Assembly (NCBI GenBank): GCA_949282345.1
Contig: CASDOQ010000050.1
Span: 1-63,890 of the forward strand
DNA from: an uncultured bacterium
Lineage (GTDB): Bacteria > Bacillota > Clostridia > Oscillospirales > CAG-272
DNA: 63,890 bases
Direction of reading: 5' to 3'
Position numbers and translations under genes: made by a program. The notes beneath the pieces are model-generated. The model saw only the letters and a program-made list of their open reading frames with translations. It made no database searches and was not told where the DNA came from. Shown here one piece after another: positions 32,248-62,255 of this stretch. Position 1 is the stretch's first letter; every line of letters begins with the position of its first letter.

Positions 32248-32276
32248 TTGACAAGCGCGCGGATTGATCGTATAAT
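32248..32276 (+). promoter_or_regulatory. Promoter of the GH127 gene
   Basis: TTGACA (32248-32253), 17-base spacer, TATAAT (32271-32276). Confidence 0.87.
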
Positions 32277-32421: not shown

Positions 32422-34209
32422 GTGCAATACTACGATTACAACCAGAAACTGCGTATACCCGATAAACTTTTCACGCCGCTGTACGGCGTCCGGCTGAACG
32501 GCGGACTCCTCGGCTCGGTCTTTGAGAACGGCATCTCCTTTGTAAAAAAGAATTTCGACGTGGATCGGATGTGCTACTGGTACGATGAAAAGGCCGGCAA
32601 GCACCCCACCGCCGAACCCTATCAGTACAACACGCTCTGGGAAGGAAGACTCCGGGGGCAGACCGCCTCGCTCTTCCTGATGGAAGCGGGGAACGCCCTT
32701 CGGTGGCGCGAGGATCCCGAACTCCGCGCCACCATGGACGCGATCGTCAACTCGATCGAGGACGCGGCGGAAGCCGACGGATTCATCCTGCCGATCGACA
32801 AATCCCAGTTCGGCCGTATCGAGTACCCGCATTACACCCGCATCTGGCTGACCTACGGGCTTCTGGCCGCTCACCGCGCCGGAAACCGCCGCGCCCTGCC
32901 GCTCTTGCGCCGTTTTCAGGACTGGTTCAACCGCTGTCCCGACTTGCCGGTCATCAAATATACCAGCCTCGCCTTTCAGGGCGTGGTGGCGTCCCCGCAG
33001 ATCTACTTCACCGAGGCCGGGCGCGAGGAGGATATGGAGATCGGGCGGGAGGCCTACGAGGAGACCTGGCGTCTTTCGCAGTTCATCGAACGCGGCGCGG
33101 AGGAAGCCGTCGCGGTACGCCGTCAGCCCGGCGTGGAACCCCACGCCCACGGCTCGGAGATCGAGGCCTACGAGGGGTATCTGGATCTCTACCGCTATTT
33201 CGGCGCGCCTTATCTCTTGAACGCCGTCCTCGGCTTCCGGGACGCTTATCAGCGGTCGTGGCAACACGTGGGCGGCGGCATCGTAATGATCGAAACCTTC
33301 CATGAAAAGAACCCCCTTACCCCCGGCTCGCGCTACTTCCGCAAGACCCACGAAGGAAAGCCCAGCACCTACAACGAGCTTTGTGCCTCGGCATTCTGGC
33401 TCCAGCTTCATCAACGTCTGCACCGCCTCTTCCCGGAAAACGAATCCTATGTTTTCGAGATTGAGCAAAGCCTCTTCAACGTGGTCGTTGCCAATCAGAA
33501 CGGCGACCGGGAAATCCGATATCATGCCTATCTCGACCAAGAAAAATCGCATTTGCCCTTTACATATCACTGCTGTGCCGGGATCGGAAGCCGCATTTTC
33601 GGTTCGCTCCCCGAATATCTCTTTACCATGAAGGACTCGACCCTCAGCGTGGATATTTTTGCCCCCAGCACCCTGACGTGGGAAACCCCGTACGGGACCG
33701 TCACCGTCCGGGAGGAGACGTGTTTTCCGTATGACGGCAAGGTGACGCTCAGACTCGAGAGCGACGCCCCGCACGAGCTGACTCTCCGCATCCGTATTCC
33801 CTGCTACGCCACGGAGGAATTGCCCGTCCTGCTGAACGGGCAGACCGTGGCGATCGGCAAGCCGGGCAGCTACGTGGAGATCCCCCGCATCTGGCAGAGC
33901 GGCGATACTCTCGCCTTCACCGTCCCCATGACGCTCACCGCCCACCCCTACGAAGGCTATGACTGCGTGGCGGGCTACCGCGCCTTCTCCTATACCTACG
34001 GGCCGCTTCTCATGGCCGTCGCGGGAGCCGCGAACGACGCCGAGGTCGGCATTGCCCTGCCGGGGGACGGGAGTTCTCTCGCCGCCGCTCTCCGCCCGAC
34101 CGACCGTCCTCTGCATTTTTCTATCGGAGACACAGGCACCACCCTCCTGCCGTATCTCGAAGTGCAGGATGAGCCTTTCACCTGCTTCCCCTTCTTCAAA
34201 AATTCCTGA
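32422..34209 (+). CDS. GH127 glycoside hydrolase (DUF1680), beta-L-arabinofuranosidase-like
   Basis: A 595-residue (alpha/alpha)6-barrel protein followed by beta domains. The zinc and nucleophile residues known for Bifidobacterium HypBA1 have counterparts: Glu319 and Cys321 in NELCASAFW, and the adjacent Cys384-Cys385 in TYHCCAGIGSR, where the second motif carries the nucleophile. No signal peptide, so it acts on imported oligosaccharides. The start is GTG 32422, with AAGGGAGG 8 bases before it; the longer frame from 32221 crosses the promoter. It should release beta-L-arabinofuranose or a similar sugar. It has its own promoter and terminator. Confidence 0.9.
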   Translation: MQYYDYNQKLRIPDKLFTPLYGVRLNGGLLGSVFENGISFVKKNFDVDRMCYWYDEKAGKHPTAEPYQYNTLWEGRLRGQTASLFLMEAGNALRWREDPELRATMDAIVNSIEDAAEADGFILPIDKSQFGRIEYPHYTRIWLTYGLLAAHRAGNRRALPLLRRFQDWFNRCPDLPVIKYTSLAFQGVVASPQIYFTEAGREEDMEIGREAYEETWRLSQFIERGAEEAVAVRRQPGVEPHAHGSEIEAYEGYLDLYRYFGAPYLLNAVLGFRDAYQRSWQHVGGGIVMIETFHEKNPLTPGSRYFRKTHEGKPSTYNELCASAFWLQLHQRLHRLFPENESYVFEIEQSLFNVVVANQNGDREIRYHAYLDQEKSHLPFTYHCCAGIGSRIFGSLPEYLFTMKDSTLSVDIFAPSTLTWETPYGTVTVREETCFPYDGKVTLRLESDAPHELTLRIRIPCYATEELPVLLNGQTVAIGKPGSYVEIPRIWQSGDTLAFTVPMTLTAHPYEGYDCVAGYRAFSYTYGPLLMAVAGAANDAEVGIALPGDGSSLAAALRPTDRPLHFSIGDTGTTLLPYLEVQDEPFTCFPFFKNS

Positions 34210-34212
34210 CCG

Positions 34213-34242
34213 AAGAGGAGCCGTCCCGGCGGCTCCTCTTTT
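34213..34242 (+). terminator. Terminator of the GH127 gene
   Basis: AAGAGGAGCCG (34213-34223) pairs with CGGCTCCTCTT (34230-34240). Confidence 0.88.
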
Positions 34243-34317: not shown

Positions 34318-34346
34318 TTGATTTTCCGGCCGCGATATAGTAAAAT
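34318..34346 (+). promoter_or_regulatory. Promoter of the beta-propeller gene
   Basis: TTGATT (34318-34323), 17-base spacer, TAAAAT (34341-34346). Confidence 0.6.
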
Positions 34347-34412: not shown

Positions 34413-35660
34413 ATGGAATTTACCAAAAAACTGGAGGGCGTGCGCCGCGCGCTGGCTCCCATGCGCTACATCACCCCGGAAGAAGGGGAATATTTCTTCG
34501 GATATTACGACCTCCCCGCCTACAATGCCGACGGCACCCGCCATCTGGCGTCGCGTCTTCCCTTTTCGGATCATGACCGCGGGCCGGAGGATGAGGTCGA
34601 GATCGGAGAGGTCGACGTCGAGACCCGCCGCTTTTATCCGATCGCGCGGACAAGTGCGTGGTGCTTCCAGCAGAACTGTATGCTCCAGTACGGCTGGGAG
34701 GATCCCGACCTTATTTTCTATAACACCTTTGAGAAGCAAGACGGCACCTATCACACCGTCCGCCGCAATCTGAAGACCGGGGAAGAGGCCAAGTCGAGCC
34801 GCGCGCTGGCCACCGTCTCGCGCAACGGGCAGTACGGTCTTTCGATCAACTTCCCGCGGGTCTGGGATTTCCGTGCCGGGTACGGCTACTGTAACACGAA
34901 GGATCGCTATTTCGACGACCATACGCCGAAGGAAGACGGCGTCTTCCTCTGCGACTTTGCAGGGAACGAAAAAATGCTTTTCAACTACGAAGAGCTAGAC
35001 CGCCGCTTTGCCACGCCCGACAAGAAGGGGGCCAAGATCGTGGTCAACCATATCACGCTCAACCCCTCCGGCAACCGCTTCCTGATGCTCCTGCGTAATT
35101 TCCGCGATGAAGAACATCCGCACTGGTCGACCTCGCTCCTGACCGGGGATCTGCAGGGAAATCTGCGCCCCGTCTCGCTGGATACGATGGTCTCGCACTA
35201 TTGGTGGCTGGATGACAAATATATCCTCGCCTACGCCAGCCCCGAGGACCATACCCCCGCTTCTTGGAAGGGACATCTCTTCCTGATCGAAGACTGCGAC
35301 AGTCACCGTTACTGGAAGGTCGGCTCTCCTCTGCTTTCCGATGCGTGGGACATCCATTGCTCGGTCTCGCCTGACGGGCGGTATCTGATTGGCGACAGTT
35401 ATCCGCCGGCCAAAGATGCGCGCTACGACGGAGACAGTGAGATCACGCCCGCCGGCTACCGTCATATCCGCATCCAGGATATGCACACCGGGAAGTCGGG
35501 CGTGCTTTGCGAGATCTATTCCCCCCTGCCGGAAAACGAGGATATCCGATGCGACCTGCATGCCCGCTTCAGCCGGGACGGTAAGCGTCTCTCTTTTGAC
35601 TCGATCGCGCGCGGCAAGCGCGAGATCCTGGAAATCGATCTTACGAAGCTGGATTTGTAA
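34413..35660 (+). CDS. Beta-propeller protein related to oligogalacturonate lyase (PL22-like)
   Basis: A 415-residue cytoplasmic protein with repeated propeller blades (LNPSGNRFLML, SVSPDGRYLIGD, RFSRDGKRLSFDS). Four histidines sit at blade starts: His213 in VVNHITLNP, His262 in VSHYWWLDD, His315 in DIHCSVSPDG and His383 in DLHARFSRDG. In family PL22 the base and manganese ligands occur in matching contexts (HPxYRP, THEFW, HPHPSF), and the distance of the last one to the C terminus is alike. I infer a divergent lyase or a sugar-binding propeller of that superfamily. Position between GH127 and GH28 genes supports a pectin-related role. AGGAGTGTATCT precedes ATG. Confidence 0.6.
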   Translation: MEFTKKLEGVRRALAPMRYITPEEGEYFFGYYDLPAYNADGTRHLASRLPFSDHDRGPEDEVEIGEVDVETRRFYPIARTSAWCFQQNCMLQYGWEDPDLIFYNTFEKQDGTYHTVRRNLKTGEEAKSSRALATVSRNGQYGLSINFPRVWDFRAGYGYCNTKDRYFDDHTPKEDGVFLCDFAGNEKMLFNYEELDRRFATPDKKGAKIVVNHITLNPSGNRFLMLLRNFRDEEHPHWSTSLLTGDLQGNLRPVSLDTMVSHYWWLDDKYILAYASPEDHTPASWKGHLFLIEDCDSHRYWKVGSPLLSDAWDIHCSVSPDGRYLIGDSYPPAKDARYDGDSEITPAGYRHIRIQDMHTGKSGVLCEIYSPLPENEDIRCDLHARFSRDGKRLSFDSIARGKREILEIDLTKLDL

Positions 35661-35984: not shown

Positions 35985-37298
35985 ATGAAATTTTTCAAAC
36001 CCTTTCCGCATCCGCTCCCGCCCGTGATCCCCGATTATACTGTCCGCATCACCGATTTCGGTGCGGTCGCCGACGGCAAAACGCCGGCCACCGAAGCCAT
36101 CCGGCGCGCGATTGAAGACGCGTCCGCGCACGGCGGCGGACACGTGGTGGTTCCGGCCGGCGTGTATCTGACCGGCGCCGTCCATCTGAAGAGCCGGATC
36201 GACCTGCATCTTGAGCGCGGGGCGGAACTTCTCTTCTCGGCCGATCCCGACGATTATCTGCCGCTCGTCTTTACCCGGATTGAAGGGATCCGCTGTTACA
36301 ACTATTCTCCTCTGCTCTACGCCTATGAATGCGAGGATCTCTCGGTGACCGGGGAAGGAAAGCTGAACGGCCAGGGAGAGAAATGGTGGCCGACCGCCCT
36401 GGAAAACCGCACGGGGATCGAAGACCTCCTCCGCCAGGGAGCCGAAGGAACACCGGTCGAAGAACGCCGGTACGGTGACTTTCAGAAGTGGGGTCTGCGC
36501 CCTTACTTCCTGCAATTCGTCTACTGCAAAAACATCCTCATCGAGGGCGTCCGCTTTATCCATTCGCCCTTCTGGTGCGTGGCGCCGCTCTTCTCCGAGA
36601 ACATCCTCATCCGCGGGGTGAGCTGGTTCTCTTCGCGGAAAGGAATCAACACCGACAGCGTGGACTTCGATTCCTGCCGCAACTGCCTGATGGAAAACTG
36701 CCATGTCGACTCCTCAAGCGATGACGGCGTCTGCGCCAAGTCGGGCAAGGACCGCGACGGCCGCGAGGCCGGCGTGCCGACCGTGAACGTGGAAGTCCGC
36801 AACTGCCGTTTTGACTGCGGAGGATGCGGCGTCGTCGTCGGGAGCGAGACCTCCGGCGGCATCGACAACGTCTGGTTTCACGACTGCGAGATCAACGAGA
36901 GCCGGCAAGCCATCCACGTCAAGAGCGCGGCGGGGCGCGGCAGTTACGTCCGCAACGTCGATTTTGACAACATCCGCGCCGGCCGCGCGACGGGCGGCAT
37001 CGTCCTCTCCACGCATTATTTCATGAAAGAGGGCGACGCGCTGACCGAAATGCCCGAGGTCTATAACATCTCGCTGGAAAACTGCTCGGTAGAAAAGTCC
37101 TATCACGGCCTGAATGTCACCGGCTTCCAGTATCATCCCCTGCGTGAGATCTATCTGAAAAATATCGATATCGGTGCATGGGAACGCCCGATGACCGTGG
37201 AATGGGTGGAGGGCATCCATATGGAAAACGTCCATGCCACGCATCACGAGCGCTACGAATGGCGCGAACTCATCGAGCCGATCCCCTATCATGACTGA
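35985..37298 (+). CDS. GH28-family pectin hydrolase (polygalacturonase-like), atypical active site
   Basis: A 437-residue right-handed parallel beta-helix protein. The N terminus has ITDFGAVADGKTPATEAIRR, the usual first turn. The catalytic signatures are NTDSVDFDSCRN (Asn222, Asp224) and SDDGVCAKSG (Asp246, Asp247), so the acid and base aspartates are kept. The next signature, normally GHGxxxGSE, reads GGCGVVVGSE (279-288), so the conserved histidine is glycine. The RxK motif appears as HVKS. No signal peptide, indicating action on imported oligosaccharides. CGGAGGCCGT precedes ATG. A galacturonidase or rhamnogalacturonan-type specificity is possible. Confidence 0.85.
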   Translation: MKFFKPFPHPLPPVIPDYTVRITDFGAVADGKTPATEAIRRAIEDASAHGGGHVVVPAGVYLTGAVHLKSRIDLHLERGAELLFSADPDDYLPLVFTRIEGIRCYNYSPLLYAYECEDLSVTGEGKLNGQGEKWWPTALENRTGIEDLLRQGAEGTPVEERRYGDFQKWGLRPYFLQFVYCKNILIEGVRFIHSPFWCVAPLFSENILIRGVSWFSSRKGINTDSVDFDSCRNCLMENCHVDSSSDDGVCAKSGKDRDGREAGVPTVNVEVRNCRFDCGGCGVVVGSETSGGIDNVWFHDCEINESRQAIHVKSAAGRGSYVRNVDFDNIRAGRATGGIVLSTHYFMKEGDALTEMPEVYNISLENCSVEKSYHGLNVTGFQYHPLREIYLKNIDIGAWERPMTVEWVEGIHMENVHATHHERYEWRELIEPIPYHD

Positions 37299-60929: not shown

Positions 60930-62255
60930 TTACAATCTCCAATAGGTAAATCCGCTGTTTTCAAGATCGGCGACCGAATAAAGTCCCTTTACATCAATCA
61001 GCACCTTTTCATTTTGAGGAATATCCTTAAACATTCCGCTCAGTTTATCGAGGCCAAGTTGCTTGAATTCATTGTGTGCGACCGCCAGAATGATGCAATC
61101 TGCGTCTGTGGCTGCATTCATCGGGCTGAGTTCAATGTGATACTCATGCTTCGCATCGCGTTCGCTCGCCCAGGGATCGATCACGACGGGCTTTATTCCG
61201 TATTCCGTCAACCTGTTATACACATCGGCAACTTTGGAGTTTCTGGTATCGGGGCAATTTTCCTTGAACGTCAATCCGAGAATGACAACTTTCGACTTTG
61301 CGGGAGCCTTGCCTACCTTTATCATCTGTTTGATTGCCGCATCCGCAACAAAATTCCCCATACTGTCATTCACGATACGACCGTTGAGGATAATCTGACT
61401 ATGATAGCCGAGCTTTTCGGCTTCATAAGTGAAATAATAAGGATCCACGCCGATACAATGTCCGCCGACAAGCCCGGGACGGAAACCAAGTGCATTCCAC
61501 TTCGTATTCATTCCCTCTACTACTTCATTGGTATCAATGCCCATCCGGTCAAAGACCATGGCAAGCTCGTTCATAAAGGCAATATTGATATCGCGCTGGC
61601 TGTTCTCCACGACCTTGACTGCTTCCGCAGTCTTGATGTTGGAAACAGGATAGGTGCCGACCTGAATCACAAGATCATATACCGCCTTGATTTCTTCCAG
61701 CGCTTCCGCATCACAGCCCGAGACGATCTTCCTGATATTTTCAAGTCTGTGCACCTTGTCACCGGGATTGATCCTTTCCGGTGAATAACCGATTTTAAAA
61801 TCAACGCCGCACTTAAGGCCCGACTCGCGTTCAATGATAGGTAAGCAAACATCTTCGGTAACGCCGGGATAAACCGTAGATTCAAATACAACAATAGAGC
61901 CTTTGGTAAGATTTCTTCCGACAATCTCACTGGCACCGATGACAGGGGTAAGGTCCGGGGTATGGTCCTGGTTTACCGGCGTCGGAACGGCAACAATATG
62001 GAACTTGGCTTCACGCAGTTTGGTTTCATCACTGGTGAAATGCACCGTCGTGTTTTTGATTACCTCATCGCCAACCTCTTTGGTCGGATCAACACCTGAT
62101 CGGTATAACTCGATCTTCTCTCTGTTAAGGTCAAAGCCTACGACTTTTACCCCTGCATTCGCAAAAGCGACCGCGATGGGCATCCCGACGTAGCCAAGAC
62201 CGATGAGGGAAAGCGCTTCTTCTCCGGATTTGATCTTATGAAATAAAGTCTTCAT
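60930..62255 (-). CDS. UDP-N-acetylhexosamine 6-dehydrogenase (WbpO/TviB-like)
   Basis: A 441-residue nucleotide-sugar dehydrogenase oxidising a UDP-sugar to its uronic acid. It has LIGLGYVGMPIAVAFANAG (NAD loop), FESTVYPGVTED, YSPERINPGDKVHRLENIRK, the catalytic Cys267 in VGGHCIGVDPYY and GLTFKENCPDTRNSKV. The SPERINPGD segment is characteristic of the TviB/WbpO group acting on UDP-GlcNAc or UDP-GalNAc rather than UDP-glucose. The product would be a capsule or exopolysaccharide building block. Codon use is clearly more AT-rich than in the central window. Confidence 0.9.
   Translation of the reverse strand: MKTLFHKIKSGEEALSLIGLGYVGMPIAVAFANAGVKVVGFDLNREKIELYRSGVDPTKEVGDEVIKNTTVHFTSDETKLREAKFHIVAVPTPVNQDHTPDLTPVIGASEIVGRNLTKGSIVVFESTVYPGVTEDVCLPIIERESGLKCGVDFKIGYSPERINPGDKVHRLENIRKIVSGCDAEALEEIKAVYDLVIQVGTYPVSNIKTAEAVKVVENSQRDINIAFMNELAMVFDRMGIDTNEVVEGMNTKWNALGFRPGLVGGHCIGVDPYYFTYEAEKLGYHSQIILNGRIVNDSMGNFVADAAIKQMIKVGKAPAKSKVVILGLTFKENCPDTRNSKVADVYNRLTEYGIKPVVIDPWASERDAKHEYHIELSPMNAATDADCIILAVAHNEFKQLGLDKLSGMFKDIPQNEKVLIDVKGLYSVADLENSGFTYWRL

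Follow-up and report, generated by a model that had tools for sequence, protein, structure and literature searches.

A PL22-related beta-propeller protein encoded between GH127 and GH28 genes belongs to a two-branched sister family of the oligogalacturonate lyases

In oligogalacturonate lyases (OGLs) of family PL22, the uronate is bound through its carboxylate by a metal and loses its C5 proton to a histidine, after which elimination takes place. A C5-epimerase makes the same first step, which is followed by reprotonation from the opposite face. A 2010 paper on the Yersinia lyase reportedly proposes His242 as the base and is said to assign Mn binding to His287, His353 and His355 together with Gln350. 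The propeller fold also serves uronic-acid chemistry in families PL24, PL25, PL40 and PL42.

A second described system is the O-antigen gene wbgV of Shigella sonnei, which carries the RefSeq name UDP-GalNAcA C5 epimerase. L-AltNAcA is the C5 epimer of D-GalNAcA. The S. sonnei O-antigen includes L-AltNAcA (PMC4368438). The other steps of the S. sonnei locus are accounted for (dehydrogenase, NAD-dependent epimerase, aminotransferase, dehydratase, sugar transferase and GT2), which leaves wbgV for the C5 step by elimination. The role of WbgV as UDP-GalNAcA C5-epimerase is thus proposed, as a prediction from annotation; our literature search found no experimental paper on WbgV, two papers link L-AltNAcA to WbgZ, and one of these names WbgZ as the C5-epimerase.

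The gene studied here lies at 34413–35660 on the plus strand of the window, namely the whole 63,890-nt stretch of DNA, from a gut-type Clostridia genome, that was analysed. It is a real gene, with an ATG start and an AGGAG ribosome-binding site just upstream, and encodes a protein of 415 residues. Pfam and NCBIfam searches with this protein recognised no family. Specifically, a Pfam scan with E up to 1 gave only a sub-threshold, unrelated match, and the cut-off of PF14583, the PL22 entry, was not reached. Searching the PDB with the single sequence found no useful match, and a profile search of the PDB gave only a weak match to TolB. Homologues are common; GTDB contigs yield 80 loci, and the same genus has a few. 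The columns invariant across 84 aligned sequences include D33, W83, Q86, N104, R149, G156–Y159, N212–H213, R228, S261–H262, D313, H315, D328, Y330, R379, D381–L382–H383 and D396.

The structure was predicted with AlphaFold2 from the homologue alignment, with pLDDT of 92.1 and pTM of 0.92; a single-sequence run (pLDDT 40) was discarded. The first three Foldseek matches of the model in the PDB are PL22 oligogalacturonate lyases, with E values of 2.5e-12 to 8.8e-12. In VIA-align the model superimposes on 334 residues of the Vibrio and Yersinia lyases with Z of 29.5 (3c5m) and 29.2 (3pe7) and RMSD of 3.2–3.3, and the next entry has Z of 23.3. Among the 50 structural matches listed and looked at there is no entry of PL24, PL25, PL40 or PL42, which excludes nothing for these families. 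Consistent with the structural matches, profile-profile alignment pairs the family with the PL22 proteins of the same genus (probability 95%, E 3.9e-8) and, over 345 columns and nearly full length, with an enlarged PL22 set (probability 96%, E 4.6e-9). The modelled fold is an OGL-type beta-propeller, and its nearest solved structures are those of PL22. Identity to 3pe7 and 3c5m is only 13–14%, so an earlier note on this DNA was right to call the protein a divergent beta-propeller far from known lyases. The protein is PL22-related and lies outside PL22, in a little-described family that the Pfam and NCBIfam libraries used do not cover. When profiles were compared with those of further, marginal groups of PL22-like propellers, probabilities ranged from 8% to 97%, indicating a superfamily that extends beyond PL22 proper. 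Five divergent PL22-like propellers of the same class (L096, L107, L092, L104 and L105) have profile matches both to PL22 and to the family described here.

The earlier note had also ascribed to the protein the histidine pattern of oligogalacturonate lyases, with histidines at 213, 262, 315 and 383. All four are present at these positions and invariant in 84 of 84 homologues. Specifically, His213 (codon 35049–35051), His262 (35196–35198), His315 (35355–35357) and His383 (35559–35561) pair in the profile-profile alignment with H188, H238, H281 and H332 of the PL22 protein of locus L088, which are invariant in the PL22 set and correspond to positions 192, 242, 287 and 355 of 3pe7. This sets His262 against PL22 His242, the proposed base, and His315 and His383 against the Mn ligands 287 and 355. 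The PL22-like sequence contexts that the note gave for these histidines hold by position, but the motifs themselves, HPxYRP, THEFW and HPHPSF, are absent from the protein and belong to the Yersinia and Vibrio lyases (3pe7 has GHPIYRP, THEFW and THPHPSF). The protein's own contexts are NHITLNPSG (213), SHYWW (262), IHCSVSPDG (315) and LHARFSRDG (383).

The resemblance exceeds what chance would give and extends beyond the histidines. Eleven of the 26 family-invariant columns coincide with PL22-invariant columns (hypergeometric P 2e-4), and D328 aligns with the invariant Asp of the PL22 GDG motif. Thus, the protein shares with the Yersinia and Vibrio enzymes a propeller aligned end to end, the base histidine, two Mn-ligand histidines and a fourth common histidine, and homology predicts that the four side chains would meet at one site. 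However, the three-His/one-Gln Mn site of PL22 is incomplete. Ligands 287 and 355 are kept, ligand His353 is replaced by the invariant Asp381 (codon 35553–35555), and the counterpart of Gln350 is either unaligned or hydrophobic. The equivalent of PL22 Arg217 is also apparently missing: Arg241 of the sister branch described below falls near Arg217 in one profile comparison and not in another, so that the pairing is tentative. In addition, the family has a conserved segment of its own, R149...GYGY.

The family is large, is sister to PL22 and has two branches, of which the larger, associated with glycosyltransferases (GTs), is biosynthetic. Position 34 divides the first 84 sequences into 10 with Leu, including the 415-residue protein (FGYYDL; codons of the invariant Asp33 and of Leu34, 34509–34514), and a remainder that is almost all Lys (72 of 74; FGYYDK). 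The same split is seen at position 229 (Asn/Asp in the Leu branch, Trp in the Lys branch), position 241 (Ser/Ala/Val/Thr against Arg in 74/74; here Ser, codon 35133–35135), position 263 (Tyr against Cys/Ser) and position 314 (varied against Gly). In a maximum-likelihood tree sampled with extra family members from the class, the protein falls in a clade of 19 members (SH-aLRT 97), and PL22 stands outside on a long branch.

In the Lys branch, a C-terminal extra domain is fused in 28 of 74 loci (L018, L021, L022, L025, L027, L034 and 22 others), and most of the fused domains inspected, by inspection rather than by Pfam scan, resemble GT2 or GT4-type glycosyltransferases. Consistent with this, 71 of the 130 immediate neighbours match GT2 and 18 match GT1/GT4-type families. 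A UDP-sugar dehydrogenase gene is present in only 13 of 51 long loci of this branch, so a uronate substrate gains no general support from gene context. In contrast, members of the Leu branch have no GT fusion and often adjoin glycoside hydrolase genes. The 25 commonest families in their 72 neighbours include GH20, AraC regulators, single GH29 and GH78 and others, but no glycosyltransferase; found singly are GH29, GH43, GH35, GH116, GH20C, GH2 and GH78. Our literature search found no reported activity for any Leu-branch member.

WbgV, of S. sonnei and Plesiomonas shigelloides O17, was matched by a Lys-branch query and is counted with the biosynthetic branch. It is homologous to the 415-residue protein over the full length (24% identity, E 3e-19), with shared motifs FGYYD, QQ, NH, SH, DxH and RCDLH, and retains the four histidines and the Asp. 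Its residue at position 34 is His rather than Lys, and the placement of its long branch in the tree is unsure.

The propeller gene sits between two genes of plant-polysaccharide hydrolase types, namely a GH127 beta-L-arabinofuranosidase-type gene at 32422–34209 (+; PF07944, PF20736) and a GH28 polygalacturonase-type gene at 35985–37298 (+; Pfam). A candidate terminator, read from the sequence as a 10-bp GC-rich hairpin and a short T run, lies directly 3' of the GH127 gene at 34214–34239 (+), although it is not among the elements listed by the terminator scan. A candidate promoter of the propeller gene's own, TTGATT-17-TAAAAT, is a consensus match at 34318–34346 (+). These two elements suggest that the propeller gene may be transcribed alone, in which case the GH127 and GH28 neighbours may not share an operon with it. 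No signal peptide is evident in the propeller or in the GH28 protein. Thus, the site of action is probably cytoplasmic, as it apparently is for PL22, and the substrates are probably imported oligosaccharides.

We consider that the protein has about an even chance of being a cytoplasmic, divalent-metal enzyme of the PL22 superfamily that acts on a uronosyl oligosaccharide handled together with GH28 and GH127. Within this explanation, epimerase activity is possible and lyase activity more doubtful. In the proposed mechanism, a metal would be held by His315, His383 and Asp381, would engage the uronate carboxylate and would acidify C5, and His262, as the counterpart of the PL22 base, would take the C5 proton. 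The resulting carbanion could be reprotonated from the other face, giving C5-epimerisation as proposed for WbgV, or could undergo beta-elimination, giving a lyase. The conserved base and a two-His/one-Asp metal site are compatible with either outcome. The analysis establishes the homology, the fold and the matching of residues; metal binding, substrate and reaction are inferred.

Loss of Lys34 and Arg241 in the Leu branch warns of a reaction or substrate that may be unlike those of both relatives, and together with the lost Gln ligand it could mean that the reaction has changed or that there is none. One alternative, which we regard as rather unlikely, is a sugar-binding propeller that has inherited the fold and residues but uses them for other catalysis, such as hydrolysis or isomerisation of non-uronic sugars, or for no catalysis, as in ligand sensing. 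The branch changes Lys34 to Leu, Arg241 to Ser/Ala/Val, Trp229 to Asn and Gly314 to varied residues agree with it, as do mixed neighbourhoods (GH20, GH29, GH35, GH78 and NagA/NagB-like genes) with no constant uronate signature. However, neither branch varies at the putative metal and base positions although divergence is large, which argues for kept catalysis.

The earlier note had suggested a new lyase subfamily acting on modified galacturonides. The PL22 fold, the base-type histidine and two of the three metal histidines support this suggestion, and with the GH28 gene adjoining and no PF14583 match anywhere in the host genome, substitution for PL22 by a true Mn-dependent, beta-eliminating oligogalacturonate lyase would be possible. 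What stands against it is membership of a separate family, of which the larger branch is biosynthetic and supplies the protein's nearest relatives; one metal histidine has also become Asp, the Gln ligand is lost, and the host has no known route for the product. DHU, a pectin breakdown product, is metabolised stepwise, the first step being catalysed by the isomerase KduI or an alternative, according to one paper (PMC12838403). The host genome is 95% complete and contains UxaC, indicating some uronate metabolism, and a single RpiB-family gene, but no KduI, UxaA, UxuA or KDPG aldolase was recognised in it. The unsaturated product of a classical lyase would thus have no recognised outlet in this host, which also weakens the idea that the protein replaces PL22 within a complete oligogalacturonate route. 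KduI is present in 8 of 13 other genomes carrying the Leu branch, which favours a lyase there, so the missing-outlet argument covers this host and not the whole branch. With the host included, 8 of 14 Leu-branch carriers have KduI against 4/4 PL22 carriers, a difference that points the same way as the missing route in numbers too small to matter. On balance we find a lyase of this kind unlikely, and the earlier reading was right at the level of fold and active site and too narrow on function. That the PL22 match reflects generic beta-propeller similarity is very improbable, because, although hundreds of propellers match at E < 0.001 in Foldseek, PL22 is 6 Z units ahead of the nearest non-PL22 entry and all four invariant histidines coincide with PL22 histidines.

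Returning to a uronosyl enzyme of the PL22 superfamily, the comparison with WbgV and the missing downstream route lead us to favour epimerisation slightly over elimination in this host, with the lyase outcome kept open. The Leu branch might then act in catabolism as a uronosyl C5-epimerase, or as a lyase with a new specificity, on a PL22 scaffold. Together with WbgV it would show one metal-propeller active site used both to build and to degrade unusual uronic-acid glycans, with lyase and epimerase as alternative ends of a shared C5-carbanion chemistry; we put this forward tentatively. The family links the oligogalacturonate lyases, a carbohydrate-catabolic branch and a widespread GT-associated propeller family. 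If the proposal is true, it predicts the metal-site residues of WbgV-type enzymes and offers C5 proton exchange as a single mechanism for many genes of capsule, O-antigen and CAZyme clusters that lack annotation.

Several Leu-branch loci have features of their own. One member (L151:2596–4678) adjoins genes with NagB- and NagA-like starts, and members at L008, L010, L149 and L150 adjoin GH20-type genes, hinting at amino-sugar-containing substrates. The copy at L101:8861–10017 (G070) adjoins a gene for a GH78 rhamnosidase and is broken into two ORFs that overlap in different frames, which may reflect a frameshift or an assembly error.

The ORF of the GH127 gene is open from 32221, and its first 67 codons look non-coding; GTG at 32422, preceded by GGGAGG, is more probably the start. 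Two perfect TTGACA-17-TATAAT promoters lie 5' of this gene on opposite strands, at 32248–32276 (+) and 32113–32085 (−), and for the latter no RNA family or tRNA was found to account for it. A gene of the UDP-glucose/GDP-mannose dehydrogenase type, without a link to the propeller gene, is located in the same window at 60930–62255 (−).
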